The notes beneath the pieces were generated by a model. It had not been told where the DNA came from, ran no database searches, and was given only the letters and a program-made list of their open reading frames with translations. This document shows positions 1 to 40,254 of a DNA stretch of 64,000 bases, piece after piece. Positions within the stretch are counted from its first letter, which is position 1; the number at the start of each line of letters is the position of its first letter. The translations under genes and the position numbers were made by a program. Origin of the DNA: Hyalangium gracile (GTDB lineage: Bacteria; Myxococcota; Myxococcia; Myxococcales; Myxococcaceae); contig NZ_JAHXBG010000012.1 of the NCBI RefSeq assembly GCF_020103725.1, forward strand, positions 186,001 to 250,000, read 5' to 3'.

Positions 1-2644
1 GCCGCTGGCGCTCGTGGGCAATCGCCGCGGCGGAGGCCTCGGGGCCCTCGGGCAGCTCGATGCCCAGCTCTCGCAGCGCCAGCCGCGCGGGCTGGATGGC
101 CTGGAGGTACTGGCCCCGGCTCACGTACGTGTCCAGCATGAGGACGTGGATCTCCGTCTTCTCCTCGACGGAGCGGGCCTGGCGGAGGATGAGCTGGAAC
201 TCCTGCTCCGCGTCGTCGTAGCGGCCCAGCTGGTTGAGGCACTCCGAGCCGTGGCGATGGAGCTCGAGGGCCAGCTCGTACTGGCGCTCCCAGCAGTCCT
301 CGCGGAGCAGCGAGGTGCCCACCTGCAGGTAGCGCAGCGCTTCCTTATATGCGGAGGAGCGCTTGGCACGCAGGCCCGCCACCAGGTTGAGCCGCGCCAG
401 CCGCTCGCGCTCCTCGGGGCTGTCGATCAGCTCGGTGGCCAGATCGAGCTGGTGGACGATCTCGAAGATGTGCGCGTCGCGCTGGGCCTCCGGAGTCTGC
501 TCCAGCAGCAGCCGGCCAATGCGCAGGTGGAGGCGCTTGCGCGCGTCCTCGGAGCTCAGCGAGTAGGCGGCCTCCTGGACGCGGTCGTGCAGGAACTCGT
601 AGCGGACCTGCGAGGGCTCCACCGCGGCCGCCTCCGTGCCCTGGCTCTGGACGTACTTGTACGCATCTCCGATGGGCAGCAGCAGCCCCAGCTGGATGGC
701 CTCCCAGAGGTCGGCCGCGGCTTCCCGGGGGCTGCGCCCGTTGATGATGGAGATGACCTCCAGGTTGAAGGTGCTGCCCACGCACGCGGCGTGCTTGAGC
801 GCCTCCTGGGTGGCGGGGGGCAGCGCGGCGAGGCGCTCGGCCATGAGGACCGCCACGTTGTCGGTGATGCCCATGCCGCGGATGCGCTCCAGCTCCCAGC
901 GCCAGCGGCCCAGCTCCGGATCGAAGGTGATGTAGCCGCGCTCGTGCAGCGTGGTGACGAACTGGCTCACGAAGAAGGGGTTGCCCTGCGTCTTCTGGAA
1001 GACCAGCGCGGCCAGCTCCGCCACGGCGGGGTCTCCCGCCCGGTCGAGGGTGTCCTCCAGCAGCTGCGTCACGCTCTCAAGCCCCAGGGGGCGCAGGGAG
1101 ATCTCGGAGACAGGTGAGGACTGCCGCAGCTCCTTCAAGGTGGCCAGCAGCGGGTGTCCGGCGCGGACCTCGTTGTCCCGGTAGGCGCCGATCACCAGCA
1201 GGTGCCGATAGCTGGGATCCGACAGGATGCGCTGGAGCAGGCCGAGCGAGGCCGCGTCCGCCCACTGCAGATCATCCAGGAAGAGGACCAGCGGGTGCTG
1301 CGGCAGCGCGAAGGCGCCCACGAGCCGCTGGAACACGAGGTTGAACCGGTTCTGGGACTCGATGGCGCCCAGCGCGGGGACGGGCGGCCGCGGGCCGATG
1401 ATGAGCTCGATCTGGGGTACGACGTCCGTCACCACGCGGCCGTTCGGCCCGAGCGCGGCCTGCAGCTCCGCCTTCCAGGTGGCGATGCGCTGCTCGTCCT
1501 CGGAGAGGATCTGCCGGACGAGGCCATCGAAGGCCTGGATCCAGGCGGCGTACGGAGAGGTGAGGAACTGCTCGAACTTGCCGGACCCGAAGTAGCCGCG
1601 CTGGCGCACCAGCGGCCGGTGGACCTCGTTCACCAGCGAGGACTTTCCGATGCCGGAGTAGCCGGTCACCAGCAGCAGCTCGGCCTGACCGCCCTGGCTG
1701 ACGCGGTTGAAGGCCGCCGCGAGCTGGGCGGCATCCTGCTCCCGGCCATAGAGCTTCTGGGAGAGGTGGAAGGAGGCGGAGACATCCCGCTGGCCCGGCA
1801 GGATGCTCGGGGTGAGCGGATCGGGCACGCCGAGCTGATCGCGGCAGAGCCGGAGGTCCGCCGACAGGCCGTAGGCGCTCTGGTAGCGCTCCTCGGCGTT
1901 CTTGGCGAGCAGCTTGAGCACCACGGCCGAGAGCGCCTGCGGCACCTCCGGGCGGAGCTGGTGGGGGGCAGGCGGCTCGACGGCGAGGTGGCTGTACACC
2001 AGCGCGGTGGCGTCGGTGCCGCTGAAGGGGGGACGGCCCGTCAGCAGCTCGTACAGGGTGATGCCGAGCGAATAGAAGTCGGTGCGGTAGTCCACCGCCC
2101 GGTTCATCCGTCCCGTCTGCTCGGGGGAGATGTACGCCAGGTCTCCATGGAGGATGGCCTGGGAGGTGTAGCTGGGGGCCTCGGAGCTCAGCCGCGAGGC
2201 CAGGTCGAAGTTCGCGAGCCGCACCTCTCCCGTCTCCGGGTGGAGCAGGATGTTGGAGGGGGTGATGTGCTTGTGGATGATGCGGCGCTGGTGCAGCTCG
2301 CCCACCACGCGGGCCAGCCTCAGGGCGATGTCCATCACCTGGCGCGGCGGCAGGCCTCCCGCCTGGAGCAGGGTGCGCAGCGGCTGGCCTCCGAAGTCCT
2401 CCATCACCAGGCACAGCTTGCTTCCGCTCCGGAGCAGCTCGACGACCCTGGCGACTCCCGGCAGGTCCAGGCTGGCGCTGAGCTCGTAGCCGTAGCGCAG
2501 GCGGGCATGCTCCTCGGGAGTGGGGCTCCCCTCTCGAGGCATCCGGAGCAGGAAGGAGCGCTCCCCCCGACAGGCTCTCAGGAGGACATGGTTGCGCTCC
2601 TCGAGCAGGGGCTGGAGGTTCGTGAAGCCGGGAGTGGAGTCCAT
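1..2644 (-). CDS. PknK-like kinase/AAA ATPase signalling protein, 3' end outside window
   Basis: The 881 visible residues hold an N-terminal protein-kinase-like domain (about 15-265), a linker, and an AAA/NACHT-like ATPase from about 300. The ATPase has Walker A GYSGIGKSS near residue 330 and Walker B LVLFLDDLQWAD. An alpha-helical TPR-like region follows towards the cut end. This is the PknK/HstK-type architecture, which usually continues into GAF and histidine-kinase domains; those would lie outside the window. The kinase motifs are degenerate: the catalytic loop reads HKHITPSN instead of HRDxKxxN, the DFG position reads NFD, and no clear VAIK lysine or glycine loop is seen. The ATG at 2644 follows a GAGG-like site. 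The gene lies 54 bases behind the PKS on the same strand, so co-transcription is possible. The start and family are well supported; kinase activity is doubtful. Confidence 0.88.
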   Translation of the reverse strand, partial: MDSTPGFTNLQPLLEERNHVLLRACRGERSFLLRMPREGSPTPEEHARLRYGYELSASLDLPGVARVVELLRSGSKLCLVMEDFGGQPLRTLLQAGGLPPRQVMDIALRLARVVGELHQRRIIHKHITPSNILLHPETGEVRLANFDLASRLSSEAPSYTSQAILHGDLAYISPEQTGRMNRAVDYRTDFYSLGITLYELLTGRPPFSGTDATALVYSHLAVEPPAPHQLRPEVPQALSAVVLKLLAKNAEERYQSAYGLSADLRLCRDQLGVPDPLTPSILPGQRDVSASFHLSQKLYGREQDAAQLAAAFNRVSQGGQAELLLVTGYSGIGKSSLVNEVHRPLVRQRGYFGSGKFEQFLTSPYAAWIQAFDGLVRQILSEDEQRIATWKAELQAALGPNGRVVTDVVPQIELIIGPRPPVPALGAIESQNRFNLVFQRLVGAFALPQHPLVLFLDDLQWADAASLGLLQRILSDPSYRHLLVIGAYRDNEVRAGHPLLATLKELRQSSPVSEISLRPLGLESVTQLLEDTLDRAGDPAVAELAALVFQKTQGNPFFVSQFVTTLHERGYITFDPELGRWRWELERIRGMGITDNVAVLMAERLAALPPATQEALKHAACVGSTFNLEVISIINGRSPREAAADLWEAIQLGLLLPIGDAYKYVQSQGTEAAAVEPSQVRYEFLHDRVQEAAYSLSSEDARKRLHLRIGRLLLEQTPEAQRDAHIFEIVHQLDLATELIDSPEERERLARLNLVAGLRAKRSSAYKEALRYLQVGTSLLREDCWERQYELALELHRHGSECLNQLGRYDDAEQEFQLILRQARSVEEKTEIHVLMLDTYVSRGQYLQAIQPARLALRELGIELPEGPEASAAAIAHERQR

Positions 2645-2698: not shown

Positions 2699-5600
2699 TC
2701 AGTCCCGGGCCTCCCGGGCGCGCTCGACACAGGCGGCCAGCCTGGCGGCGAGGACCTCCACATAGGGTGGCTTGAGCAGGGACAGGTGATCGCCGGGGAT
2801 CTCGTGGACATCCACGCCTCCGGCGGCGAGCTTGCCCCAGCCCATGGTCTGCTCTCGGCCCCCCCGGCGTTGGCGCACCTCTTCGGAGGAGAAGAGCGTC
2901 ACCTTGTGCGGGTAGGCGCGAGGCTCGTAGGCGAACGTCTCCCGGACGTGGATGAGGAAGAGCCGGAACAAGGCCCGCATGGCGGGCTGGCGCAGGGCCA
3001 TCCTGAGCGCCTCGTCCGGGACGAAGTTCGCCAGCGCGGACCGGGCCAGGAACGTCTCCAGCGGTCGCCGCTCGCGCAGCAGTCGTCCCAGCAAGCCGGG
3101 CGCTGGGGCCCGTCGCTCAGCGCTCCCGTGCACCAGGTAGAGGTAGTCGAGCAGGTGGGGCCAGATCGACCGCGAGACGCCCGAGGCGAAGAAGTACGCC
3201 ATCTGCGAGGGTGAGGGGCGGTGGCCAGGCAGCGGCGCCGGCTCGTCCACGAGGGCCAGCAGTCGTACCTCCTGTCCTGAGGCGGTGAGCTGCTGGGCCA
3301 TCTCGAAGGAGACGAGGCAGCCGAAGGAGTGGCCTCCGAGGTAGTAGGGCCCTCGCGGCTGGACGCGGCGGATGGCCTCGATGTAGCGCCGGGCCATGTC
3401 CTCGACGCGCTCGTCCGGCGCGGACTCTCCGTCCAGCCCGTGCGCCTGGAGCCCGTAGAAGGGCTGATCGGCTCCGAGCCGTCGGGCCAGCTCGACGTAC
3501 GGGAAGACCGCTCCCGCGGCGGGGTGGACGAAGTAGAGCGGAGGCTTGGAGCCGTGGGGCTGGAGGGCGATGAGGGGGGAGGTCGTCTCCGGCTCGGGAG
3601 GGCCCTGGAGGGCCTGGGCCATCCGCTCGACGGTGGTGCCCCGGAAGGCGAGGCCCGGGGGGACCTGGAGGCCCAGCTCCCGCTGGAGCCGATCCGTGAG
3701 GCGCAGCATCACCAGGGAGTCTCCGCCCAGCGCGAAGAAGTCGTCCTGGACGCCAATGGGCTCCGTTCCGAAGAGCTCCTCGCAGACCGAGGCGATGCGG
3801 CGCTCCAGCTCGTTTCGAGGCGCGACGTACGCACTGCTCAGCGGAGGGCGGGGAGCACGGCGGCCGGTGACGCGAGGGTTCGGGTGGGCGCCAGGGCTGG
3901 AGAGAGGCAGAGGGGAGGTGACCGCGATGCGAGGCGCGACGGAGGCGACCGTGGGCCGCCGGGCGAGGATGAGCCCGTGGTCCGACTCCTCATGGGCGCT
4001 CCCGGCTCGGGGGAAGAGCTCGATGGTGTCGAAGCCGGCCTCGGCCAGGGCCTGCTTCCACACGGGGAGCGGGAGCAGGGGCGAGTCCTTCCGGAAGGCG
4101 TCATCGTAGTACCACCAGCCCTCCGCCAGCCCCCAGGAGAGGACCTCCCAGCGGGGCGTGCGGAGCGCCTCCACCAGCCCGAGTGTTCCTCCCGGAGCGA
4201 GCAGCCTCTGGAGGTGGCGCAGCGTGCGTGACACGTCCTTCGTGGCGTGGACGACGTTGCAGGCGACGATGAGGTCGAAGCCCTGCTCGGCGTAGCCCTG
4301 CGGGCCCGGCTCCTGGGCGATGTCGAAGACGCCGAAGCGCATCCGCGCGTCCAGGCCGCGCCGGGCAGCCTCTGTCCGGGCGTCGTCGACGAAGACCTTG
4401 CCGAGATCCGTGAAGCAGTACTCGAAGTCGTGCGCCTGGAGCGCGGTGACGAGCGGCCAGGTCAGCAGCCCCTGGCCTCCGCCCACCTCGAGGACGCGCA
4501 AGCGGCGGCCTCGGGCGGTGGCGGCGATGCGGCGCGTGGCCTCTCCCAGGAGCAGGTTGTAGAGGCGCATCTGCCCGTGCTCGGCCGTTCGCGCGTTGCA
4601 GTCCTGCACGAACGCGGGGCTCCCATTCGGGAACAGCAGGCTGATGGCCTCCACCTGTCCGTTCAGCGCCTGGGGATAGCCGCGCAGGCAGTGCTCCACG
4701 AAGTCGAACAGGCCGCGGAACTGGGGGTGTGCCGTGTCCAGCCGCTGGCGCAGCGTGCTCGAGGGCTCGAGCCCCGCGGCGTCGCGCTGGAAGACGAGCT
4801 GCTCTCCCGAGATACGCACGAGGCCGTCCTCGGCCAGGCTTGCCAGCAGGGCGTCGAAGAGCCGCTCGAAGCGAGGCTGGACGCCGAGCTGTCGCACCAA
4901 GGCACTTCGCGTGTGGGTCGCGCCACGCCGAGTCTCCACGCCCGCCGTCCGGAGGTACTCGCAGACGAGACTGGAGCAGAAGGCTTCGAGGCCCTCCTTC
5001 AGTCCCGGGTAGCTCCGCACGGGGCGGATGGCCAGCGTGCGGTGCAGCTCCTGCTCCACGTCTTCGAGGGGGCGCTCGGATGCGGAAGCCTCGGTGCGGA
5101 GCGGCGCGGGCGTGCGTCCGAGCCAGTGGGAGTGTCGCTCGAACGGGTAGGTGGGCAGCGTGACGCGCAGGCGTCTGCGCTCGGAGTGGTGGGCTGCCCA
5201 GTCCACCGGCGCGCCCTGGGCCCAGAGCTGCCCCAGCGCCGCGAGCCACGCCTCCAGATCCGAGCGCTCGTCCTCGGCGGAGGAGCGCAGGCTGGGAATC
5301 GCGCGCGCGCCAGGGGAGGGCTGCTGCGAGGCGAGCGCGCTCAGCACGCGCCCCGGTCCTACCTCGAGGAGCAGATGGTCCCGAGAGGAGAGCTCCGCCA
5401 GTCCGGAGGCGAAGCGCACGGGCTGGCGCAGGTGCTGGGCCCAGTAGTCGGGATCGGTGGCCTGCGCCTCCGTCACCCAGGTGCCGGTGACGTTGGAGAG
5501 GTACGGCAGGCGAGGCGCATTCCGGCGCACCCGGCGAACCTCCTGGGCGAAGGTGTCGAGGATGGGCTCCATCATCCCCGAGTGGAACGCATGCGAGGTG

Positions 5601-7765
5601 TGCAGCCTGCGCGAGACCTTGCCGAGGGAGGTGAGTCGGGCTTCGAGCGTCGCCACGGCCTCCACGGGCCCGGACGCGACGCACGCCGCGGGGCCGTTCA
5701 CCGCGGCCAGGGCCAGCTCCGGCCCCAGCAGTGGCACCAGCTCGGTCTCCGCCATGGGCACTGCCAGCATCGCTCCGGGGGGAAGCTGCTGCATCAGCCG
5801 GCCTCGGAGCGCCACCAGCCTCAGAGCGTCCTCCAGCGAGAAGACCTCGGCCAGACAGGCCGCGACATATTCCCCGAGGCTGTGGCCCAGCATCGCCGCG
5901 GGCCGGACACCGTGAGAGAGCCACAGGCGGGCGAGCGCGTACTCCACGGTGAAGAGCGCCGGCTGGGCCAGCGCCGTCTGCTCCAGGCGCAGCTGCTCCT
6001 CGGGCCCGCGACGGCCGGGATGGAGCACGCCGCGCAGGTCCAGACCGAGGTGGGGCTCGAGGAGCCGCGCGCATCGGTCCACCTCCTGCCGGAAGAGGGG
6101 CTCTTCCCGGTACAGCGCCTCCGCCATTCCCAGGTGCTGGGTGCCCTGGCCCGGGAAGAGGAAGGCGACGCTCCTTCCGCCATCGGGAGCCGTGCCCTCG
6201 TACCGCCGCGCGGGCGTCTCCAGGGCTCGAGTGGCGTCCGCCAGGTTCCGGGCCACCACGGCGCGGCGGTGGGCGAAGGCGCGGCGCCCCTCCTGGAGCG
6301 TGGAGGCCACGTCCGAGAGGTTCTCCTCCGGATGGGCCTCCAGGTGGGCCCGGAGCCGGGCCGTCATGCTGTCGAGCGCCTCGGGCGTGCGCGCGGAGAG
6401 CACCAGCAGCTCCGCGGAGCGGCCGGGAGCACCGGACTCCCGGGGCGGGGCTTCCTCGAGGATGACGTGGGCGTTGGTTCCGCCCATGGCAAATGAGCTG
6501 ACGCCCGCGCGCCGAGGAGTGGGCCCTTCCCGCCAGGGAGTCAGGGTGGCGTTGACGAAGAAGGGGCTCTCCTCCAGGCTCAGCTTCGGGTGGGGCTGGG
6601 TGAAGTGGAGGCTGGGAGGAAGGAGCCTGCTCTCCAGCGCTCGGGTGGCCTTGATGAGGCCTGCCACGCCCGCGGCGTTGTTGAGGTGGCCGATGTTCGT
6701 CTTCACCGAGCCGATGGCGCAGAAGCCGTGCTCCCGCGTCGAGCGCCGGAAGGCCTGCGTCAGCGCCGCCACCTCGATGGCATCACCGAGCGCCGTCCCC
6801 GTCCCGTGGGCCTCCACGTACGAGATGGAGCGAGCGTCCACTCCCGCCAGGGCGAGCGCGGTCTGGATGACCTCGGCCTGCCCGTCGATGCTGGGAGCGG
6901 TGTAGCCCACCTTCTTGGAGCCGTCGTTGTTGACGGCGGCGGCGAGGATGACCGCGCGGATGGAGTCGCCCGCGGCCAGTGCGTCCTCCAGTCGCTTGAG
7001 CACGACCACACCCAGGCCATCCGCCGGGACGGTGCCCCGAGCCGCCGCGTCAAAGGCCCGGCAGTGTCCATCGGGCGAGAGGATGTGCCCCTCTTGCGGC
7101 TGGTAGCCCGTGCCGACGGGGAAGGCGACGGAGACGCCTCCGGCCAGGGCCATGTCGCACTGGAAGTCGAGCAGCGACTGGCAAGCGAGCTGGACCGCCA
7201 CGAGCGACGTGGAGCACGCCGTCTGCACGGTGATGGCGGGGCCGCGCAGGTTCAGCTTGTAGGCGACGCGGGTCGTCAGGTGGTCCTTGTCATTGCCGAG
7301 GATGGTGGCCAGCCCGTCGAGCAGCTCCCGCGTGTCCATCGTGGGCGCCACGTGGTGCAGCAGGTAGCCGGGGGCTCCTGCTCCCGCGAAGAGGCCGATC
7401 GGGCCCGGGAAGCGGTCCGGATCGTAGCCCGCGCTCTCCAGCGCCTCCCAGGCACACTCGAGGAACAGGCGCTGCTGGGGATCGATGAGCTCGGCTTCCC
7501 TCGGGCTGTAGCCGAAGAAGGACGCATCGAAGAGGTCCACGCCCTCGATGAGTCCACGGGCGGGGACGTAGCCTGGCCGCTGTCTCGCCGCCGCGTCGAC
7601 TCCAGCGTCCTCCAGACTGGCGTCCGGGAGACGGGTGATCAGCTCCACGCCATCGCACAGGCTCCGCCACAGGGACTCCACGTCACGTGCGCCCGGGAAG
7701 CGCCCGGCCATCCCGATGATGGCAATGGCGTCCGCGGCCCCATCCATTCCCCTCTCACTGCTCAT
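2699..7765 (-). CDS. Type I PKS module KS-AT-MT-ACP-TE
   Basis: This 1688-residue terminal module has, in order: KS with active Cys184 in TACSTS, plus HGTGT and the NIGH motif; AT with Ser629 in GHSLGE and an HAFH motif, which usually means malonyl-CoA; a SAM-dependent C-methyltransferase with motif EVGGGQG near 1092; ACP with Ser1350 in LGGDSL; and a thioesterase with Ser1480 in GHSFG. There is no KR, DH or ER, so the beta-keto group should remain. The ATG at 7765 is preferred over in-frame codons further upstream because AAAGGA precedes it. It overlaps the NRPS stop by 11 bases, so the two subunits are probably translationally coupled. The inferred role is to accept the NRPS-bound chain, add one malonyl unit that may be methylated, and release the product by hydrolysis or cyclisation. 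Confidence 0.95.
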
Positions 7766-10700
7766 CGGAGTCCTTTCTGTTCTCGCTCGTGTGTCGGAGC
7801 CGGTGGCGTCCGCGAGCCGCGCGCTGCTTCTGGGCACGCTCGTCGATGGCGTTGCCTTCAGCTGACGGTGCGCTGCTCCCGGACAGGTACGTGGCCAGGG
7901 CGCGCACCGTCGGATACCGGAAGAGCTCCAGCCCGGTCAGCCGTCGCTCGAAGAGCTGCTCGAGCCTGTGGTGCACCTGGGCCAGCAGAATCGAGTGGCC
8001 GCCGAGCTCGAAGAAGTTGTCGAGCACGCCGACCTCCTCCAGCCCCAGGTACTGCTTCCAGACGGCGGCGACCTTTCGCTCCACTTCGTCCCGGGGTGGA
8101 ACCCGCTCCGTGCTGGCCCCGCTCCTTCCCGGCTCCAGCGAGGCGAGCGCTTCCAGGTCCACCCTTCCGCCATCTCTCGGGAGCTGCTCGACCCGACGGA
8201 GCACTCGGGGGATCGGGGTTCCGAAGCGGTCCCGCACCTCGGGGAGAGTCTCGAGTGGTGGCTCTCTCCCTGGCGGGCAGGTGTGGAAGGCGGTGAGCTG
8301 GAGCCCTCGGGGGAGGGCGGGCTCGGTGCGCGCGCGGACCTGGGGGGCATCGGGGTCGAGCCCGATGAGGAGCTCTCCCGTCGGCTGTCCCAGGGCCGCG
8401 AGCAGCGAGAGCCATCCTCGGGTGGGGGAGATGGCCTGGTAGCCGCGGGCGCTCGCCAGCCGCTCCTGCTCCTCGCTACGTGCGGGGCCGAGCCCCTTCC
8501 AGCGGCTCCAGGCGAAGCAGTCGCGCCGAGCTGCCGTGACGCCGCGTCGGGTGTGGAGGAAGTGCTCGAGGAAGCGGTTCGCGGCGGAGTACGCGCCCAC
8601 GGAGAAGCCTCCGAAGGCGCTGTTCAGCGAGGAGAAGCCGATGAGGAAGGCGTCGGGTCGCTCCTCGAGCATGCGCTCCAAGGCAAGCGTCCCCTCCACC
8701 TTGGGACGGAGCACCGAGGCGAAGTGCTCCAGGGACTCCTCCGCGAGCACCTGCTCGACGATGGCCCCCGCGAGGTGGAGGACTCCCTCGAGGGGTTGGT
8801 TCCACCGAGCCTCGGCGTGCGCCACCACCTGTCGCAGGGCTTCCGCGTCGGAGACCTCCACCGCCTCGTAGTGCACCTGGCCACCAGTGCGCGCGGCCAG
8901 CCGCTCGAGCTCCGCGAAAGCCTGGCGGCGTTCGAGCGCCTCGGGCGAGGACAGGGCGGTCCGACCGATGAGGAGCAGTCGTGCGCGATAGGTCTCCAGC
9001 AGCCGGCTCGAGAGCTCCACGCCCAGGGCGCCGAGCCCGCCGGTGAGCAGGTAGGTGCCACCGTCCCGGAAGGGAAGATGCCGTCGCTCTCCGACTCCCG
9101 GATCCACCTGCTCCAGTCGAGGCACGAGCCGCTGGCCACCGCGGTAGGCCACCTCGCGCTCGCGCCGCACCGCCCGCAGCTCGCTCAGTACGTGAGGGAG
9201 GTGCTCCTCCGGTGGACCGCCCGCGAGGTCCAGATGGCGGACATCGAGCCAGGGCATCTCCTGGGGCAGCGTCTGCGCCAGCCCGAGCAGCAGCGCCTTG
9301 TCGCAGTGGATCGCCTCTCCGGGAGCGGTGGGCTGGGCGTGACGGGAGATGACGTGCAGTCGCAGAGGCGCTCCGCCGTGCGGACTTCGAGCCAGCGCCT
9401 GTGCCAGGAGCAGCAGGCTCCACGCGCCCTGTCGGCGGGGCTCGGCGGAGGTCTCATGTGGCTCCCCGTCGACGGTCCACAGATGCAACACCTGCGCGAG
9501 GGGGCCGCTCTCCGAGGCCAATGCGGCCAGCAGCCAGCCATGGGCCTCCGGGTCGTCCGGACGGATGCGGAAGGCATCGGGCCCGAGCCGCTGCGAGCCG
9601 GTGCCTGGCTCCACCAGGACGCACCGCCCGCTGGAGGAGCGCAGGGCCTCGGCAAGCAGTGCCCCAAGTCCGTGCGGGTCCGCGAAGAGCAGGGTGGTCC
9701 CGCGTCGAGGAGAGGCCAGGGGCCCCAGCGCTCGGGGGCGCCACACGCGTCGATGGAACCAGGCCGGCAGGGTGTTGTCATTGCCCTGATGCATGTCCAG
9801 CGCTTCGAGGACCGCTGAGAAGCGGCCCGCCGCCAGCGCCTCCTTCAGCGCCACTCGCTGGATCTTCCCGCTCGTGGTGCGAGGGAACTGCTCGCGGGTG
9901 AGGGGAATGACGTGGGTCGGTGCGGCTCCGAAGCTCGAGGTCACTCGCGTCCGGATCTCCGTGGCGAGGCGGACGTGCGTCTCGATGTCTCCCTCACGAG
10001 GGACGAAGAAGACGGCGAACCCCTCCGTCCCCTGGGCGGGGGCGTCCACACTGCACGTCGCGGCGAGCTCCACGCCCTCCACGCCGCACACGCGATCCTC
10101 GATGTCGTGGCAGTACAGGTGGGTGCCACGGACGATGATCATCTCCTTCTGGCGTCCGGTGATGGAGAGGTGGCCGCCCAGGAGGAAGCCGGAGTCCCCG
10201 GTGTCGAACCAGCCATCGCCGACGAAGGCCTGCGCGTGGAGGCCTCGGACGTAGCCGGGGGTGACGACGGCGCCTCGGGCCTGCACTCGGCCGATCACGG
10301 CCTCGGGGAGGAGCTGGTTCTGCGCGTCCACGATGCGCAGCTGCACGCCCGGCGACGGCGTCCCGACGTCGATGAAGGTGACCGTGGAGGGGCTCTCGGA
10401 GTCCTGCAGCTCCAGCGCGCCGCCGATGCTGGAGCTCAGCACGTGGTGGCCGCCACTCTCGACGTCGAAGCCCTCGCGGTGAGTGACGACGGTGCACAGC
10501 TCGGCCATGCCATAGCCGGGCTGCATCACGGAGGGCTGGATGCCGAAGGGCCTCACGTCCTCGAGGAACGCGCGGATGACGGACAGGGTGACCTGCTCGC
10601 CCGCGTTGAAGAGGCGGCGCAGGCGGTCCAGCCGCCAGGTGCGCCCGGGGGCCCGCCGCAGCGCATCGCTGACGAGCTTGTAGCCAAAGTTCGGGGACCA

Positions 10701-13700
10701 GCTGAACGTCACGTCGTGGGCCTCGATCAGGTCCAACCAGCGCAGCGGGTCGGCGAGGAGCCACTCGGTGGCGACCTGAACCTGCTCCTGGCCCAGGTAG
10801 GTGCAGCGCGCGTGGTACATCAACAGCGGGCCCACGTGATCGAACGGGAGCCAGTTGAGGCAGACGTCCTGCGGCACGTAGCCGTTGACCCGAGCCACCG
10901 CGTGGGTGTGGTGGGCGACGCCCGTGTGGGTGATCTGGACGCACTTGGGCACGCCGGTGCTGCCCGAGCTGAGCTGGAGGAAGGCGACGTCCTCGGGCTT
11001 CGCCGGGTGGAGGTGCTCCGCCGGAGGAGCGTGTCGCAGCGCCTCGAGCGGCACGAGCACGGGCTCCGGCATGGACAGGAGCCTGGGCAGCCCCTGGAGC
11101 GGAGCGAGCAGGCGGGTGCTGGCGATGATGCGGGGACGGTCGAGCAGCTCCCACGCCCCATGCAGCTTGTCGATCACCGCGTTGCGCGTCTCATAGGTGG
11201 GGGCCACGGCGACCACGACGGGCGTGATGCCGCCCAGCAGGCAGGCCCAGAAGGTGGTGCACAGGTCGCGCAGGGAGTCGAGCTGCAGGATGGCCCGATC
11301 TCCCGCGCTCAGCCCATGGGCACGCAGTCCGCCCAGCACGCACCGGGCCTCCTGAAGGAGCTCGGAGTAGCGCTGCCGTTGGACCGAGCCATCCGCGCCG
11401 ACGTAGGTGACGCCCCTCGGGCCGGACGAGGCGGCAACGTGCAGAAGGGCCGCGACGAGCGTCCGGGGTGCCTCGTCGGGGAGCACCAGCGGCCCGCCGT
11501 CGCTGAAGGCCATGGCTCCTGAGTGCGAGTTCGCCGGAGCAGCGCGAGTGGGTTGAGCCGCTGCCTGGGCCTCCTGGGCCCTGCCGGGTCGGAAGCCCGG
11601 CACCAGCCGCGAGAGGTGCAGATGCTCGCGGCGCCTCGAGGGAGGGGTGAGGTGCACCTCCACCGTGTCGAACGCGTGTCTCTGTCGGAGCTGCTCCTCC
11701 CACTGCCGAGCGAGAGGCTCCTCCAGGACTGGCAGGCGCTGCAGCGCGTCCTCATCCACCCGGCCCTGCGAGGTGAGGGGCAGGGTGTCCACGGGCACGA
11801 ACACGTCGGGCGTCAGGTGAGCCGGGAGCGGTGGTGCTCGGAACCCACCGGTCGGGCGATGACCCGAGGGGACGACATACGCGACGCTCAGCGGGCGTGC
11901 GTCAGGCAGGCGCCGGAAGCGCACCGCGCAGTCTTCCACGGAAGCATCCGCCAGCAGCGCGGCCTCTACCTCGGAGGGGCGAAGCTCCTTGGGGAGTCCC
12001 CAGCGCCCTGGGCGCTCCAACCGAGAGAGTGGACGATCAGGGACCGCGGTGACCTCTTCCAGCAGCGCCTGGAAGTCCGAGATCAACCGCTCGACGGTCT
12101 CCGCCTCGAACAGGTCCGTGTTGTAGAGGAGCGTGCCCTCGAGCCCGCCTGCGTCCTCCCAGAAGTTCCAGGTGAGCTCGAACGGAGCCACCCCGATGTC
12201 CGTCTCCGAGATGCGCACGTGAAGGCCGCCTCGGGTCGCAACCTCGGGAGGCGGGCGCTGGAGCGCGAGCATGACCTGGAACAGGGGCTGGTGGCCCGCG
12301 GCACGGTCTGGACGCAGTTCCTCCACGAGCTTCTCGAAAGGAACGTCCTGGTGGGCGTAGCACTCCAGGGTGTGGGCGCGGACGCGCGTGAGGAGCTCAC
12401 GGAAGCCGGGATCGCCATGGAGCTGGATCCGGAGCGCGAGCGTGTTCACGAAGAAGCCGATGAGCCCCTCCAGCTCGCGCCGGTTGCGGCCGGCGACAGG
12501 GGCCCCCACGACCAGATCCTCGCTGCCCGTGCAGCGGTGAAGGAGCGCGCCCAGCGCCGCCTGAAGGGCCATGAAGAGGGTGGAGCCCTCCGCGCGTGCC
12601 AGCGCATCGAGGGCCCGTGTGGTGGAGGGCGCGATGCGAAGGCCGCGCATCGCCCCGCGTGACGTCGGCGAGGAGGGCCTCGGTCTGTCGACGGGCAGCT
12701 CCAGCCAGCGAGGAGCCCCCTCCAGCGCTCGTCTCCAGAAGGAGAGGCCCTGCGCGAGCCGCTCCCCCTCCAGCCACTGCTGCTGCCACAGCGTGTAGTC
12801 GGCGTACTGGACGGGCAGGGCGGGCAGGGGAGCGGAGTCCCCCGCGAGCAGCCCCTCGTAGAGGGCGGTCAGATCCCGAGCCAGCACATCCAGCGAGGCG
12901 CCGTCGCAGACGGTGTGGTGGATGGCCAGGAGCAGTGCGTGCTCGGTCGCGCCCATCGATACCAGGTGGGCTCGGAGCAGCGGACCCTCGGCCAGCTGGA
13001 AGGGGCGCGCGAGCACCTCTCGCGCCAGAGCGGCGAGCTGCTCGGCTCGCTGGGATTCGGGCACGCTCCCAAGCTCGGTCACGGGCAGCGGAACGGGGGC
13101 GGGAGGGAGGATGCGCTGAACCGGTCCGGAGTCGCCGAGTGGGAACGTGGTCCGCAAGCCCTCGTGCCGCTCCAGCAGCGCGCCAAGGGCCCGCGCCAGC
13201 GTGGGGACATCGAGCGGCCCCGTCAGCCGCGCGGTGAGCGGGATGTTGTAGGGGTCAGCACCGGGATCGAGCCGGTGAAGGAACCAGAGCCGCTGCTGGG
13301 CGAAGGACAGCGGAACCGCCTCGGGGCGCGCAGCTGGGACGAGCGGAGGGAGCTCCGGCCCGTGCTCTCGGGAAGCCTCGATGCGCTCGGCGAGCCGACC
13401 CAGCGTCTGGGCCTGGAGCACCTCCAGGGGCGGCACCTCCAGCCCGAGGGCTTCACGGATCCGCAGCGCCACGGAGGTGGCCCGCAGCGAGTCTCCACCC
13501 AGCTCGAGGAAGCCGTCATCCAGGCCCACCGGAGCGACGCCCAGCACCTGACTCCAGAGGCTCTCCAGGGCGCGCTGGAGAGGCGTCTCCGGAGGCCGGA
13601 AGGGCGCCGCGAGCACGGGGCGCTCCCTCCCCGGAGGAGGCAGGGCGCGGCGATCCACCTTCCCGTTCGGCGACACCGGCAGCGCCGACAGCTCCACGAA

Positions 13701-15161
13701 GGCCGCCGGGACCATGTACTCGGGCAGCTCCCGCTGAGCGAACTGCCGCCACCCCGAGGGTCCGGGGGACCGCCCCGGAGGAACGACGAGGTAGGCCACC
13801 AGCCGCTTCTCGCCCGCCGTGTCCTCGCGACCCACCACCGTGACGGCCTGCACCACCGGGTGTCGCGCCAGCACGGCCTCCACCTCGCCAGGCTCCACGC
13901 GGTAGCCGCGGATCTTGAGCTGGTCGTCCTTGCGGCCCAGGAACTCGATGTCCCCATCTGGCTGGACGCGCACCAGGTCCCCGGTCCGATAGAGCCGCTC
14001 GCCCGTGGCGGGGTGGGGGACGAACCGCTGGGCCGTCAGCTCGGGGCGGCCGAGATAGCCGCGGGCCACACCCTTCCCGCCGATGAACAGCTCCCCCACC
14101 GTGCCATCCGGCACTGGGCGCAGGACCTCATCCAGGACATGGATCGTCGCTCCGTCGAGCGGCCGGCCAATGGGAGGAGGGCGATCGGACGGCGTCGCCG
14201 CGGAGCACTCGTAGACGGTGGCGTAGACGGTGGCCTCGGTGGGCCCATACGCGTTCACCAGCCGTCGACCCGGGCTCCAGCGCGAGACGACAGGCGCCGT
14301 GCAGGCCTCTCCTCCGGACAGCAGCATCCGCAGGTGGGACAGCCCCTCCGTGGGAAGGACGGCCAGCAGCGACGGAGGCAGCACCGCGTGGGTGATGGCC
14401 CGAGCCCGCAGCAGCCCCAGGAGCGCCGGCCCGGGAACGAGCGCGTTCTGCGGCACCAGGTGGAGCGAGCCCCCGGTCTCCCACGCCATGAGCATCTCGG
14501 ACACCGAGAGATCGAAGTTGAGCGAGGTGTACTGGAGGACGCGAGCCGGTGGTCCCAGGCCCAGCGCACGCGCGAGCGCCGCGGAGAGCTGGACGATGCC
14601 GCGGTGCGCGATCAGCACCCCCTTGGGCCTGCCCGTGGAGCCCGAGGTGAACAGCAGGTAGGCCAGGGAGTCCGGCCCGGCGCGGCACGGGGGACGCGAG
14701 GTCGGCTGCGTGAGCAGCGAGGGGTTCGAGTCCAGGCGCAAGCGCCGGGCGGGGCTGTCGGGCAACGCGGGCTCCACCGCGCTGTGGGTGAGCACCACCG
14801 GGACGGCGGCGTCCTCGAGGATGTAGCCGAGCCGCTGTCGAGGGTAGGCCGGGTCGAGTGGGACGTAGGCCCCACCGGCCTTGAGGATGCCCAGCAGCCC
14901 CACGAAGCTCTCCAGCGAGCGACCCGTGCACAGCCCGACGGGGACCTCTGGCCCCACGCCCAGCCCCTGCAGCGCATGGGCGACCTGATTGGCTCGGGCC
15001 TCCAGCTCCCGGTAGGTGAGCTGCCCCTCCTCGGACACGAGCGCGACCGCGTCAGGGTGCTGCCGGACGCACGCCTCGAACAGCCCGTGCAGGTGCGGGG
15101 GCGATTCTTCAGCGAGGGGGGGAATGGACGGTGACAGTGGGCCGGAAAGCACGGAGTCCAT
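7755..15161 (-). CDS. NRPS: A-PCP-C-(A remnant)-acyl ligase-KR-PCP
   Basis: The 2468 residues hold two modules. Module 1 has an adenylation domain (about 25-520; [20 protein letters not shown]) and a PCP (Ser558 in LGGDSL). My Stachelhaus reading is D-L-S-V-L-G-A-V-Y-K, with no confident substrate. A condensation domain follows (about 600-1030, HHTVCDG near 746). Next is an isolated C-terminal adenylation subdomain (about 1055-1135). A second AMP-forming domain (about 1200-1780, [10 protein letters not shown]) resembles acyl/hydroxy-acid ligases more than amino-acid A domains. Then comes a ketoreductase (TGGLGALG near 2044; catalytic Ser and Tyr in the SSLNS...GAYSAANRF region near 2190) with a pseudo-Rossmann half in front, and a PCP (Ser2390 in LGGHSI). 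The tail is highly basic and may dock to the PKS. No strong ribosome-binding site precedes ATG 15161, so the exact start is less certain. Confidence 0.95.
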
Positions 15162-15330: not shown

Positions 15331-16932
15331 ATGCAGGAACAGAAGCTCGCAGACGCCTCGACGGTGGTCCCGTCCCCCCGTCCTCGTGAGCGGACGCAGC
15401 GGGTCGTGCCGGCCTTGACGGTCATCTCCCACCCCGACCTCCAGCGTGCGGGGGAGCGGCTGGTGCTCGCGGCCCTGGCCACCCAGGAGAGCGTGGCGGT
15501 GTCGCGCACGGCCCCGGAATTCAAGTTCCCGGGAGCGCTCCAGGGGATGGCGCTGGCGGACCCCTTCCTCAGCCGCAAGCCCCTGGTCTTCGAGCCTGGC
15601 CCCGATGGCGGCGTGAGGCTGCGGGTGGAGGAGGGCGGCACCTCGGTGCGCGTGGGGGAGTCCCCGCTGGTCGGGGCGCAGGAGTTCACCCCGAAGGCGC
15701 TGGCCGAGGGCGTGCCGCTGGTGCTCGCCGATCGCATCGTGCTGTGGCTCCACCAGGTCCCCGATGACACGCCCACCGCGACGGAGGGGCTCGGGATGGT
15801 GGGTTACAGCACGGGCGTGCGCCGGGTGCGCGAGGGCATCTCCCAGGTGGCGGACCTCAAGGTGCCCGTGCTCATCCGGGGCGAGACGGGCTCGGGCAAG
15901 GAGCTCGTCGCCCAGGCGATCCACCGCATCAGCCCGCGCAAGGCCGGCCCCTTCGTCAGCGTCAACCTGGGAGCGCTCTCCAAGGAACTGGCCGCCGCCG
16001 AGCTCTTCGGCGCGCGCAAGGGTGCCTACACGGGCTCCGTGCAGGATCGCGACGGCTACTTCCGCGCCGCCCACGGCGGCACACTGTTCCTCGACGAGGT
16101 GGGCGAGGCACCGCCCGAGGTGCAGGCGCTGCTGCTGCGCGTGCTGGAGACGGGCGAGGTGTATCCGGTGGGTGGGCACTCCTCCGTGGCGGTGGACGTC
16201 CGGCTGATCGCCGCCACGGACGCGGATCTCGAGGAGCGCATCCGCGATGAGCTCTTCAAGGCACCGCTGCTGCACCGGCTGGCGGGCTACGAGATCCGGG
16301 TGCCACCGCTGCGCGAGCGCCGCGAGGACATCGGGGTGCTCTTCCACCACTTCGCCCGTCAGGAACTGGAGGCGCTGGGAGAGACACACCGCCTGGAGGT
16401 CAAGGACGCACGAGCCGAGCCCTGGTTGCCGGCCGCGGTGGCGCTCCAGCTGCTGCGCTACTCCTGGCCGGGGAACATCCGGCAGCTGCGCAACCTCTCG
16501 AGGCAGATCGTCATCGGCAGCCGCAGCCAGCCCGTGCTCCAGCTGAGCCCGCACATCGAGCAGGAGCTGAACAGCACGCCTCCGGCGGTGTCCGAGCCCG
16601 TTCCCGAGCGGCGCACGCGGCAGAAGCCGGAGGGGGCAAGCTCCCGGCGCAGACCCTCGGAGGTGAGCGATGAGGAGATGCGGGAGGCGCTGAGCGCCAC
16701 GGGATGGGACATGAAGGCCGCGGCGGAGCGGCTGGGCATCACCCGTCCCTCGCTCTACATGCTGATCGACAAGAGCCCCAGCCTGAGGACGGCGGTGGAG
16801 CTGAGCCCCGAGGAGATCACCCGCTGCTTCCATGAGTGCAACGGAGACCTGGACGCCATGGTGCAGCGCCTCCAGGTCTCCAAGCGCGGGCTCCAGCGCC
16901 GGGTCAAGGATCTGGGACTGGTCACCTCGTGA
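15331..16932 (+). CDS. Sigma54-type enhancer-binding transcriptional activator (FHA-like, AAA+, Fis HTH)
   Basis: This 533-residue activator has an N-terminal beta-rich FHA-like domain (about 60-140, degenerate). A sigma54-interaction AAA+ domain follows, with Walker A GETGSGKE near 184, the sigma54 loop as GAYTGS near 231 (consensus GAFTGA) and Walker [10 protein letters not shown] near 252. A Fis-type helix-turn-helix lies at about 449-479, and a second short HTH-like segment at the C-terminus contains [14 protein letters not shown]-containing members of this family are typical of myxobacteria and are usually controlled by Ser/Thr kinases. ATG 15331 is chosen over earlier in-frame starts because it follows AAGGGACGAG and avoids overlap with the NRPS. 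Its position points to control of the adjacent cluster; this is inference. The Y in place of F in the loop is tolerated in some relatives. Confidence 0.93.
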
Positions 16933-35140: not shown

Positions 35141-35499
35141 GGGGGCGACCTGGTTTCGACGGGGGCATGGAAGCCCGAGACGCGTGCCGAGCCGTCAGTG
35201 ACTCGTTAAACCGCTGGCAAAAGACACAAAAGCCAACGACAACGTTGAGCTCGCGCTGGCTGCCTAACAACAGTTCTTAGCGCGCGGTCCTCCTGCTCTC
35301 GGCCCGTGGGGTGGGGTAGGACCGTCATAATGCGGGCTGGCTGCCGAGGGTGCCTGGGCCCGAGGTGGCGAGATCTTCCAGGACCGGCTCGGAGTATCCC
35401 GTCCGTGGGAGCCTTCGGGACGTAGCAAAGCGCGGACTACGCACGTAGGGTCGAAGGGCCGAAGGCTTTCGGACGCGGGTTCGATTCCCGCCGCCTCCA
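35141..35499 (+). ncRNA. ssrA: Transfer-messenger RNA (tmRNA)
   Basis: This one-piece tmRNA of about 359 bases rescues stalled ribosomes and tags the nascent peptide for degradation. The 5' end starts GGGGGCGACC and TGGTTTCGACGGGGGC, the hallmark of ssrA. The 3' end contains GCGGGTTCGATTCCCGC (T arm) and CGCCTCC, which pairs with 5' GGGGGCG to close the acceptor stem. After the discriminator A the sequence is CAG, so CCA is not encoded and must be added. The tag reading frame is 35232-35267 and encodes ANDNVELALAA followed by TAA. A promoter precedes it and an intrinsic terminator follows. Confidence 0.97.
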
Positions 35500-35524
35500 C
35501 AGAGCAGCAAGGGACGTAGCAAGG

Positions 35525-35608: not shown

Positions 35609-38600
35609 TCACCGCCCCTGCGCGTCTCCCCCTGCGCGCAGTGCGAGCTCCTCGGCGCGCTTCACCGCCTCCACGTTGTCCTCCGGATTCACGTCGATGA
35701 GGAGGTGGCGTGGGTCGATGCCGGCGCGGGCGGGTTCACTCTTCACCCTCACGCGCAGGCTCTGCGCGCCGGAGCGGAGGCGGTGGCGCTCGAGGTAGAG
35801 CGGCTCGCCCTGCGCTCCGTCCTTCCCGGCTGCGTAGACGCCCACCTCGACGAATTCGTCCAGGGCGACCTCGGTCGCGTGGCCCTCGGGGTCCACCGTC
35901 TCCTTGCGCGCCTGCACGTCGAGCGTCACCCACCAGGTGCCATCCCCCACGGGCTCCGCCGTGGCACGTCTCGCCTGCAGTGCCCAGAAGGTGTTCGCCT
36001 CGAAGAGGTCGTGCAGCAGGCCGCGCTGCTCCTCGGGGGTGACGGCTTGCAACTCCCGGTAGAGGTCGAGCGAGGTGGGCAGCGGGGGCACTCCCGCGCC
36101 GTAGCGCTCGATCATCCGCCGCAGCGCGGTGTTCACGCGCGCCTCGCCCACGTACTCGCGCAGCGCATACATGGCGAAGGGTCCCTTGCGGTACGCGAGG
36201 AACCAGTCGGTGGCCCTCAGCAGCGGCACGCCGGCGCGGTTGCGCGGGGTGAGGTACGCCTCGCGCATCCTGTCCATCAGCCGCCCCAGGTGCGCGGCCC
36301 CATGGGCCTTCTCCACGACCGAGAGCGCGCTGTACCAGGCCATGCTCTCGCTGAGCACCGGCGCGCCCTCCATCCAGGCGGGGGTGACCTGGTTGCCCCA
36401 CCACTGGTGCGCCACCTCGTGGGCCACCACCGCGAAGGGGAAGTCGATGTCGCGAGGGTCCTCCTCCGGATGCAGCAGCGAGAAGCCCTCCCTGAACGAG
36501 ACGTTCACCGGTGCCGCGTGCAGCCCGACGCCTGAGCCCGGGTGCTCGACGAAGCGCAGCTGGCGGTGCGGGTAGGGACCGAACTGTCCCGAGAGGTAGT
36601 CGAGCGAGGCCTGCACGCTCTTCACCATGCGCGCCACGTTGTGGCCGTGGCCCGGATGATGGAAGACCTGGATGGTGACGTCCTTCCAGCGCCCCTCGTG
36701 CACCGCGTAGTCCGCCGAGTAGAAGGCGTAGTCGTTGTCGATGGGGACGTCCGTCACGTAGTGGAAGTAGCGCCGGCCCCTTTCCGCCCACGTGCTGAGC
36801 AGGGCGCCGGGAGCGAGCGCCACCTGGCCCTCATCCGTGCCCACCACCGCCTCGAAGGCGATGCGCGGGCCGCTTCCCTCGCGGGCCACATCGTCGCCCT
36901 CGTCCAGCGCGCGGACGGCAGGGCGCGGGGCGAGGCCGTGCTTGCGGCGCTCGCCTGCGTTGCTGAGCTCGCGGCGCTGCTGGTAGCCGAGCGCGGGCAG
37001 GAGCGTGCGGTGCACGAAGTAGGTGCCGTTCGCGGTGACGGACGCATCCGGCCCGTCGTTCGGAAATCCCCGCGGGGCGTAGCGCACCTCGAAGTGTAGC
37101 TGCAGTGAGTCGCCGGGCTGCAGCGGCTGCGCCAGCGCGTAGATGCGGTGTCCGAGCGCCTCGTCCGAGAGCTGCACCGTGGCGGGCGGATCGAAGCGCA
37201 CCTCGGCCGTCTCTACGTCCGGCGCGGGGGCCAGGTGGATGGTCTCGATGGGCGCCGTGCCACTGTTGACGAGCTGGTAGGTGCCGCGCAGCGCAGCCTC
37301 CCGCCGCCGCGGATACAGCTCGACGTGCAGCCGCGTGCCGGTGAGCTGCGGCTGCGGCACGTCCGCGTAACGCCCGTAGCGCCGCTCGTACTCCGCGCTC
37401 TGCGCCCGCGCGTCCGCGGCTGTGCGGAAGGTGTTCAGCACGTTCGTGTTGTAGAGGATGAAGCCGCCCACACCGAGGATGAGCCCTGTGGCCAGCGCGG
37501 CCGTCGCGAGGACAGGACGGCCCAGGCGCGTGCGCGCCAGCCGCAGCCGCGCACGGAAGCCCCCCTCCCGGCCGCGCACCCACAGCAGCCGCGCCGCCAC
37601 CGCGAGCAGCAGTGCCCACGCCGCCCAGTAGAGCGTGAACCACAGCCACGGCCCCAGGGAGGGCCCGAAGCCGCGCATGTCGGAGTACGACCAGCCAGGG
37701 CTCGCCCCATAGACGAGCAGGTGGTGCTCGAGCCCGAGCGACGCGGCGAAGGCCCGCAGCCCGTGCGCGAGCACCAGGACGAGGTGGCCCACGTACTTGT
37801 GGTCCACCAGCACGTGCACGGTGAGCGCCAGCAGGGCGAAGAGGAGGCGCTCGGCGAGCTGCAGCCCGAAGAGGATGCGCAGGTACAGCCCGGGCTCGAA
37901 GTGCGTGTAGCCGCTGCTCACCTGGATGGCGAGGGCCGCGGCGAGCAGCAGTGCGTGCAGCGCGACGAGCACGAGCGCGAGCCCTCCGAGCTTGCCCAGG
38001 AAGGGAACCCAGTCGGGCACCGGCGCCGCGTCCGCCATCTCGCTCAGGCCCGCCTCCCGCTCGCGCCACACCAGCTCTCCGGCGCACCAGACGGTGAACA
38101 GCGGAATGAGCAGCGAGAGGAGATCTCCCGAGGCGCCGATGAAGCCGAGGAGTTGCTCCGTGGTGGGCATCATCGGAACGCCCACGTGACTTATCACCTC
38201 CGGCGCGATGAGCAGCAGCAGCGCCGGCATCGTGACGAGGGCGAGCGCGCCCCCGCCCTTCACCAGCGCGCGGAACGAGTGCCATGCCACCGCCCCCACC
38301 TGGCGCGCGCGGGCCGCAGGGCCGAAACCGCGCAGCACTCGCGGGACGGCGATGGGAGCGGGACGCTCCGCCGCGGTCTGCCGAGCCGCGGCGCGCGAGC
38401 GGCGCCCCCAACGGTGGGTCTCGGTGTGTGGGTGCGCGAAGCGGAAGCGCAGGTGGGTGAGCGCGAGCAGGCCGAGCGCGATGCCCATCCACAGGAGGCG
38501 GTTGGTGAGCAGCGCGCCCTCAAGTGCGACCGGGCGCGTGCTCTTCTCGGTGTCCGTCCACGAGCGTGACAGCTCGTTCACCACCGTGAAGCCGAGCGGG

Positions 38601-39229: not shown

Positions 39230-40137
39230 GACGCCACCTCGAGCGTGGGCCGCGCGGCGCGCGCTCCGGAGTGCCCCGCCATGATGCTGAAGTAGACGTC
39301 CTCGAGTCCCGGCTCCACGGGCTCGAACCCGGGCGCCGGTGCGCTCTCGGCGTAGACGCGCACCACCGTGCGTCCCGCCAGCAGCTTCGTGGAGATGACG
39401 GCGTGCGCGCGCTCGAGCGCCTCCAGCTCCGCGCGTGCGACGGTGCGGCGCCAGATGCGCCCGCGCAGCGCCTCCACCGCGCGCGGGGGCTCTGCCTCCA
39501 GGAGGATCTCCCCCCGGTTGATGATCGCCATCCGGCTGCAAAGCTCCGCCACGTCCTCCACGATGTGCGTGGAGAGGATGACCACGCTGCGCTCGCCGAG
39601 CCCGCTGAGCAGGTTGAGGAAGCGCACCCGCTCGGCCGGGTCCAGGCCCGCCGTGGGCTCGTCCACGATGATGAGGCGCGGATCGCCGAGCAGCGCCACC
39701 GCCACGCCGAAGCGCTGCCGCATCCCGCCCGAGTAGCCGCCCAGCCGCTCCTTGCGCACCGCGTACAGGTTCGTCTGGTGCAGCAGCGCGTCCACTGTCT
39801 CCCGGCGCACGCGCTTGTCCGTGATCCCCTTGAGGATGGCGAAGTGCTCGAGCAGCCGCTCCGCGCTCTCCTTCGGGTACACGCCGAACTCCTGCGGCAG
39901 GTAGCCGAGCGAGGCGCGCACCCGCTCCTTCTCGCGCAGCACGTCCACGTCCCCCAGCCGGATGCTGCCCGCATCCGGCTCCTGCAGCGTGGCGAGCGTG
40001 CGCATCAGCGTGCTCTTGCCCGCGCCGTTGGGGCCCAGCAGCCCGTACATCCCCGCCAGGATGGTGAGCGTGACGTCGCGCAGGGCATGCACTCCGTTCG
40101 CGTAGGTCTTCGAGAGGTTGCGAATCTGCAGTTCCAT
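39226..40137 (-). CDS. ABC transporter ATP-binding protein
   Basis: This 303-residue ATPase has Walker A GPNGAGKST, Q-loop YLPQE, signature YSGGMRQR, Walker B RLIIVDEPTAGLDP and switch His in STHIVED. It energises the permease-peptidase fusion, whose start overlaps its stop (ATGA). The ATG at 40137 is chosen because the nucleotide-binding domain begins immediately after it; upstream in-frame sequence is Pro-rich. Its C-terminal 80 residues form a regulatory tail typical of ABC-2 exporters. It lies 117 bases behind the membrane-protein gene at 40255. Confidence 0.95.
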   Translation of the reverse strand: MELQIRNLSKTYANGVHALRDVTLTILAGMYGLLGPNGAGKSTLMRTLATLQEPDAGSIRLGDVDVLREKERVRASLGYLPQEFGVYPKESAERLLEHFAILKGITDKRVRRETVDALLHQTNLYAVRKERLGGYSGGMRQRFGVAVALLGDPRLIIVDEPTAGLDPAERVRFLNLLSGLGERSVVILSTHIVEDVAELCSRMAIINRGEILLEAEPPRAVEALRGRIWRRTVARAELEALERAHAVISTKLLAGRTVVRVYAESAPAPGFEPVEPGLEDVYFSIMAGHSGARAARPTLEVAS

Positions 40138-40254
40138 CGGACACCCGGGGGGGAGAGGAGCTTCGGCGTGAGGCAAGGCGGTGGCGTCGCCGTCCCCCAT
40201 GGCGGAAGACGGCGGGGTGAAGGGGCGGGCGGTGAGACGCGCGGGAGGGGCCGC

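Follow-up and report, generated by a model that had tools for sequence, protein, structure and literature searches.

A compact two-gene assembly line in Hyalangium that likely builds a depsipeptide-polyketide from three building blocks

RESULTS

Genes and domains of the line

A 64,000-nucleotide stretch of the Hyalangium gracile genome (contig NZ_JAHXBG010000012.1, positions 186,001 to 250,000; hereafter "the window," from a genome of 11.7 Mb) carries two minus-strand genes for a hybrid of nonribosomal peptide synthetase (NRPS) and polyketide synthase (PKS). We consider it likely that their products form a three-building-block depsipeptide-polyketide line, in which an amino acid is esterified to a keto-acid-derived hydroxy acid and one methylated C2 unit is added. 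Gene 1 has the order A-PCP-C-AL-KR-PCP (Pfam: two AMP-binding domains, Condensation, KR, and two PP-binding domains) and gene 2 the order KS-AT-MT-ACP-TE (Pfam: KS, AT, methyltransferase, PP-binding, and thioesterase). In the window's list of open reading frames (ORFs), gene 1 is the 2468-aa frame at 7755-15161 and gene 2 a 1712-aa frame at 2699-7837, both on the minus strand. Gene 2 probably begins not at the GTG at 7837 but at an ATG near 7765, overlapping the end of gene 1 and yielding 1682 aa, because the corresponding proteins of four other Hyalangium genomes (clade 2, below) begin at about this point.

All catalytic motifs sought in the two genes are present. The domain order, first given in an earlier note made from the letters of this stretch, is confirmed by the ORFs, Pfam, the motifs, and the orthologs. 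A codon-usage gene call ranks the pair as the two highest-scoring ORFs of the window, which, with both genes inside the small training set, serves as a consistency check only. Conservation of the full-length line in six other genomes rules out both a chance ORF and an assembly artifact. The features of the line are as follows, with motif positions in gene 1's own numbering and, for gene 2, counted from the 1682-aa start.

7755..15161, minus strand: NRPS gene 1, 2468 aa, A-PCP-C-(vestigial Asub)-AL-KR-PCP (Pfam, motifs, orthologs in 6 other genomes)
13659..15080, minus strand: A1 domain, with the Asp of amino-acid-type domains kept (PF00501/PF13193; PDB match LgrA; alignment; core motifs at 172/303/391/499)
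13380..13571, minus strand: PCP1 (PF00550, residues 531-594; LGGDS at 554)
12015..13319, minus strand: Condensation domain, which would form the ester (PF00668, residues 615-1049; HHTVCDG at 748 intact)
11742..11978, minus strand: vestigial A-subdomain (pseudo-Asub, N-terminal part), between C and AL (Asub hidden Markov model)
9792..11468, minus strand, borders approximate: AL, a putative StsA-type alpha-keto acid adenylation domain (PDB matches; SSGSTG at 1398, YGMAE at 1550, SGKIQR at 1764)
8499..9059, minus strand: KR, catalytic motifs intact (PF08659, residues 2035-2221; GGLGALG at 2041, FSSLN at 2176, AYSAAN at 2190)
7872..8129, minus strand, borders approximate: PCP2 (second PF00550 stretch; LGGHS at 2386)
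2699..7765, minus strand: PKS gene 2, KS-AT-MT-ACP-TE (ORF, Pfam, motifs)
6602..7732, minus strand: KS (PF00109 and PF02801; TACSTS at 176, His motifs at 312/353)
5327..6163, minus strand: AT, intact in the window (PF00698; GHSLGE at 621, HAFHS at 719)
4181..4492, minus strand: core of the C-methyltransferase, with its SAM motif (PF08242; EVGGGQG at 1087)
3608..3796, minus strand: ACP (PF00550; motif at 1340)
2771..3541, minus strand: TE, Ser-Asp-His motifs present (PF00975; GHSFG at 1472, VDEPAP at 1500, GDHLSL at 1652)

An AL-KR-PCP module resembling StsA

The AL segment finds its best PDB match in StsA (6ULW; E=2.5e-129), an A-KR-T module of the cereulide-like synthetases that selects alpha-ketoisocaproate, followed by McyG (4R0M; E=4.4e-112); the best FAAL structure is far weaker (8.4e-42). 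Taken whole, the AL-KR-PCP unit matches 6ULW at E=1e-196 over 1246 residues (127-1372 of the 1382 in the query), KR and PCP included. Two traits distinguish the A domain of StsA, namely, an aliphatic residue that replaces Asp235 and a Gly-Met that replaces Gly-Pro (PMC11253843). Each has its counterpart in the window: StsA I306 aligns with a Val of the AL domain, and the Gly-Met (StsA G414-M415) recurs as GMAE in the window, its relatives, and the more distant genome G112. Gly-Met at this position is also common in FAALs and is not exclusive to keto-acid modules. The KR lies in the same module as AL, with intact catalytic motifs (Pfam and motif search), and an N-terminal piece of a pseudo-Asub stands between C and AL (39.3 bits, E=1.9e-13, against 2.1 bits for the reversed segment, with a model built from other loci of the same genome). 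In the StsA work, pieces of a pseudo-Asub are said to flank the A-KR unit.

Because StsA is the closest structure, its selectivity traits recur, and an Asub remnant precedes AL, this domain probably adenylates an alpha-keto acid, which would be reduced to a hydroxy acid and then esterified. That order of events is the one described for StsA-type modules, in which the keto acid is loaded, reduced by the KR, and joined as an ester by the C domain (PMC11355689). A module with CAL and KR is likewise held to make the alpha-hydroxy acid ester of hectoramide B, and CAL domains also occur in the cryptophycin and hectochlorin clusters (PMC10949194).

AL-KR proteins with open frames of ~1320-1470 aa are also found at loci L016, L017, L018, L020, and L021, in three myxobacterial genera (33-35% identity to the window AL-KR), and the cyanobacterial loci L035 and L036 hold AL-KR modules that are 39% identical to that of the window.

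Distribution of the line and erosion of its AT

Searching 147 genomes of the class with an AL-KR alignment recovered the orthologous line in seven (>2000 bits; open frame of 2477-2552 aa): six of the seven Hyalangium genomes, plus G112, which belongs to another genus of the same family and whose gene 1 is 49% identical over 2450 residues. Sixteen further genomes match at 467-750 bits, and second loci occur in G000 (935 bits) and G112 (535 bits); by their scores and open-frame lengths, these weaker matches appear to represent other architectures or fragments.

The AT is whole in the window and in H. versicolor (clade 1; 321/321 aligned columns) and eroded in the four other Hyalangium copies (clade 2) and in G112, where 178-223 of the 321 columns are left, the GHSLG serine motif has turned into GQGPG or GRGVG, and the HAFHS block is gone. 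When three other PKSs serve as the root, G112 branches outside both Hyalangium clades in the trees of KS and of MT-ACP-TE (bootstrap values of 100 and 85), so that two separate losses are the simplest history, and the AT was probably lost twice; alternatively, there may have been a single loss with later repair in clade 1.

Between the window and H. versicolor, the PKS domains are under purifying selection (omega of 0.08-0.25; AT, 0.155; TE, 0.161). Within clade 2, the ratio of nonsynonymous to synonymous substitution rates (dN/dS) of the AT remnant (0.38, 0.26, and 0.47 in three pairs) lies above that of KS (0.14-0.19) but only modestly above that of TE (0.24, 0.26, and 0.37) and equals it in one pair. 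Relaxed selection on the remnant is thus likely, although not strongly supported.

The specificity residues of A1 also differ among the three lineages, reading DLSVLGAVYK in the window, DVWAVTAVHK in clade 2, and DAFAVGTVSK in G112. These were obtained from alignments by motif anchoring at the ten positions listed in PMC11355689, with the last Lys taken from the A10 motif and assumed for G112.

Proposed assembly and competing explanations

The substrates and product given here are proposals from sequence, with no substrate assigned. A1 would load an amino acid onto PCP1, whereas AL would adenylate an alpha-keto acid and pass it to PCP2, on which the KR would reduce it to the alpha-hydroxy acid; the C domain would then esterify the hydroxyl with the aminoacyl group. 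At the carboxyl end, KS would add a unit from malonyl, supplied by the AT; the window AT carries HAFHS, the motif of malonyl-type ATs. MT would methylate the alpha carbon one or two times, and TE would release the product. Gene 1 starts with A1 (residue 28), with no starter C domain ahead of it, and the amine should therefore stay free. For release and ring formation, we can only guess at the simplest outcomes. The beta-keto acid might readily decarboxylate, leaving an alpha-hydroxy ketone esterified with the aminoacyl group; this ester could, on chemical grounds only, close as a 1,4-oxazin-2-one through addition of the free amine to the ketone (a six-membered ring). Alternatively, TE might close a ring directly.

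The earlier note had proposed an alpha-keto acid processed by the KR, a possible ester bond, and one malonyl unit that may be C-methylated. All three find support, albeit solely in the sequence, with the AL-KR-PCP module matching StsA and carrying its selectivity traits, and this core chemistry is probably right.

Several observations weigh against the proposed assembly. In the hectoramide study, a separate A domain is credited with choosing the keto acid, and the CAL is suspected to be idle (PMC10949194); the window module, by contrast, has just one A core, accompanied by the Asub remnant. At 7 of 10 motif-anchored positions, the AL pocket departs from that of StsA (VGLWFAGTVK in the window and IGVWIGASAK in StsA), FAAL-type ligases also match AL, with much weaker scores, and the C-terminal half of the pseudo-Asub, behind the KR, scored only 2.0 bits with the Asub model. 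In G112, the last residue of the KR motif has changed from Asn to Ser. The substrate of A1 is not assignable: a literature search with the window and clade 2 codes found neither in print, and no paper with two of three reference A codes, tried as a bridge, was found either. Finally, the AT is dead in five relatives, so malonyl loading by an AT in cis is not essential to the family.

The line might, instead, build an antimycin-like core, with A1 taking a hydroxylated amino acid of the Thr/Ser type, TE closing a nine-membered dilactone on its side chain, and the amine left free or later N-acylated. We regard this as unlikely, since the A1 residues DLSVLGAVYK do not resemble the known Thr/Ser sets, gene 1 lacks an N-terminal C domain, and no gene for an aryl-acid starter was recognized among the flanking genes examined, among which no dedicated search was made; nevertheless, the module logic is that of AntC/AntD and, with the MT, that of SmlC/NatC (PMC6117356). 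Equally doubtful is an AL that activates a fatty or aryl acid in the manner of FAALs, leaving the KR idle or acting elsewhere and the product something other than a simple ester. AL does sit within the wider acyl-AMP ligase group, matching both McyG and FAAL structures, and the suspected idle CAL occurs in a similar hectoramide module (PMC10949194), but StsA is far closer (E=2.5e-129, versus 8.4e-42 for the best FAAL), the KR motifs are intact, and the Asub remnant is present. Still less probable, in our estimation, is a PKS that adds no malonyl in vivo, such that the line ends as an aminoacyl-hydroxy acid and KS-MT-ACP-TE only passes it on, methylates it, or releases it. The erosion of the AT in 5/7 orthologs, with the other PKS domains kept, would fit such a role, whereas the intact window AT, held under purifying selection (omega of 0.155), and the KS active-site motifs, intact in 6/6 Hyalangium copies, argue for extension. 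We retain the three-building-block assembly, with its keto-acid-derived ester and single extension, as the likely one.

Comparison with characterized systems

Judged by its predicted domains, the line follows the logic of the antimycin enzymes AntC/AntD minus the aryl starter. AntC uses a conventional A domain. In the antimycin and JBIR-06 lines, too, an NRPS that contains a KR module precedes KS-AT-(MT)-ACP-TE, and the window shares with AntC/AntD and SmlB/SmlC an amino-acid module, a module whose KR serves a keto or hydroxy acid, and a one-module PKS with TE, the MT being present in SmlC/NatC as well (PMC6117356). Unlike the antimycin line, gene 1 of the window has no N-terminal C domain to load a 3-formamidosalicylate starter, and no aryl starter was seen. 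Antimycin-type lines further feature a Thr-selecting A1, whereas the residues of the window A1 are not assignable, as well as a free-standing ketoreductase of the AntM type and, for antimycin itself, a CCR. The statement that no characterized cluster has this form is weakened, as the logic comes close, without being identical, to that of AntC/AntD and of SmlB/SmlC from the JBIR-06 pathway.

The resemblance to StsA covers the A-KR-T module, the aliphatic residue at the site of the amine-contacting Asp, Gly-Met where Gly-Pro would otherwise stand, and a long match that includes KR and T; however, StsA is an initiation module (PMC11253843), whereas the window module is internal, following a C domain, and its pocket residues differ. 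HcaB of hectoramide B similarly combines CAL and KR in one ester-forming module but has a separate A domain besides the CAL and belongs to a multimodule peptide line, not to a two-gene line with a single PKS module (PMC10949194). The hyalanones of Hyalangium ruber, which are 2(1H)-pyrazinones, come from the same genus and are likewise small rings of few building blocks; they contain two ring nitrogens rather than the ester oxygen predicted here, and they are reported without a demonstrated gene cluster (PMC10959286). As an aside drawn by us from that paper, an NRPS-PKS origin from Val, Thr, and a decarboxylated malonyl unit, rather than from two amino acids only, would also be compatible with the substituents reported for hyalanones B and C.

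A recurrent patatin-like neighbor

A patatin-like gene lies near all seven copies of the line. In three clade 2 copies, it begins 31 bp downstream of the PKS, and in the fourth, there is an 8-bp overlap (starts called by script); the distances are ~1.2 kb in G112, 10.9 kb in the window genome, and 14.5 kb in H. versicolor. When the patatin of the window genome was searched against 96 genomes of the family, all five matches at E<=1e-20 (query included) fell at NRPS or NRPS-PKS loci, namely, the two-gene line in G000, G006, G003, and G112 and a further line on contig C5 of the window genome. An alignment of seven such patatins, searched against the 147 genomes, gave 8 strong matches (the seven copies of the line and C5) and 34 weaker ones. 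We tested 20 loci from several genera that cover 21 of these 34, and KS, C, or AT domains occur within the fetched stretch at 16/20, compared to 0/20 control patatin loci (picked by hand from three Hyalangium genomes). One layout, with the patatin directly behind C, A, and TE domains, is shared by 13 of the 16 positive loci. Such counts make a chance neighbor unlikely, and the association of patatins with assembly lines, which rests on about seven cluster types, is real. A tree built from 12 patatins of assembly lines and 3 controls did not separate the two groups, since the controls branch among the others with low support values; hence, it does not show that the assembly-line patatins descend from one ancestor.

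The M. xanthus patatin MXAN_4295 probably lies in the DKxanthene cluster; no joint mention of patatin and DKxanthene was found in the literature searched. The protein is listed in a proteomics paper (PMC6627406). Neighboring patatins have been noted at NRPS clusters before, without a role: the puwainaphycin paper lists a patatin, orf2, whose role could not be linked to the pathway (PMC4219810), and in activated-sludge and culture-collection strains, NRPS genes with an adjacent patatin have been described (PMC10681181). No test of a shared patatin step was found in the part of the patatin, PKS, and NRPS literature examined.

Patatins share a FabD/lysophospholipase-like fold. A speculative role, to which we give only a small chance, is that of a general partner of myxobacterial assembly lines, either a trans acyltransferase or an editing or offloading hydrolase acting on carrier-bound chains, which may load malonyl in trans where the AT is dead. 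The narrower idea of a replacement for the dead AT is weakened, as patatins also adjoin lines with an intact AT (contig C2 of the window genome and locus L103).

The C2 line (573866-581926; L038:7866-15926) is a single 2686-aa protein with the order A-MT-PCP-KS-AT-MT-ACP-TE; a patatin gene follows 105 bp downstream, and an adjoining protein combines WD40 repeats with a patatin match. Two giant proteins, of 1787 and 1752 aa, likewise combine a patatin match with many WD40 repeats; their genes (L033:7935-13298 and L038:1342-6600) each have a patatin gene alongside and an NRPS-PKS line in the vicinity. On contig C5, from 108270 (L028:12270-20000), a large NRPS gene starts with an Asub-like segment followed by AL-KR (by eye, a keto-acid starter module). 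A patatin lies 78 bp upstream of it, and the locus also holds an ArsA-like ATPase (again by eye) and a relative of the sigma-54 activator described below.

Other neighboring genes

Two genes flank the line in the window, as follows.

15331..16932, plus strand: divergent sigma-54-type activator, AAA+ with Fis HTH (PF00158, PF02954)
2..2644, minus strand: Ser/Thr kinase-AAA_16-GAF-HisKA-HATPase protein, N-terminal part, running out of the window (Pfam of the window part and of the full H. versicolor protein)

The activator stands beside two of the seven copies, those of the window and H. versicolor, and no relative was found in the fetched stretches around the other five (E<=1e-20, >100 bits). 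No sigma-54 -24/-12 site with <=2 mismatches occurs between the divergent genes, and the whole window holds 24 matches, versus 24.2 expected. The activator gene claimed in the earlier note is real, but calling it the line's own fits poorly with its presence at 2/7 copies and the lack of a sigma-54 site between the genes.

The giant Ser/Thr-His kinase gene lies within ~4 kb of all seven copies, with only its C-terminal part in the fetched stretch of three, and the H. versicolor protein finds it by tblastn at the other six loci with 48-89% identity. Giant kinases may be common in myxobacteria at large, which would limit the weight of this 7/7. A 664-aa kinase is also encoded near the line at the three loci whose fetched stretches reach far enough. 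With the giant kinase within ~4 kb and a patatin of a kind that recurs at assembly lines within ~15 kb of every copy, the view of the line as self-contained is weakened. Genes for a P450 and a SAM-methyltransferase flank 4/4 clade 2 copies; neither was found in the window genome or in H. versicolor at the thresholds used, and G002 has only a distant P450 (36%).

Elsewhere in the window are a tmRNA gene (35141-35500; tag, ANDNVELALAA) and, at 35609-42260, a gene whose 1742-aa product has a peptidase M1 domain and, below the Pfam cutoff, a weak match to an ABC-2 membrane domain; it adjoins an ABC ATPase.

DISCUSSION

The distribution of the line, its lineage-variable A1 residues, the erosion of its AT, and its recurrent patatin neighbor are new. 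The relatives constitute a natural experiment, in which the same line occurs with a living AT and with a dead one. The recurrent patatin points to a shared step in myxobacterial assembly lines. If the general role for the patatin were true, the window would show the form of the line that has its AT, loading having passed elsewhere to an enzyme of the lipase fold. If the proposed assembly is right, Hyalangium possesses a very small ester-building hybrid line, made of two proteins, using three building blocks, and kept through most of the genus, which would offer a compact system in which to test keto-acid modules and transfer from NRPS to PKS.

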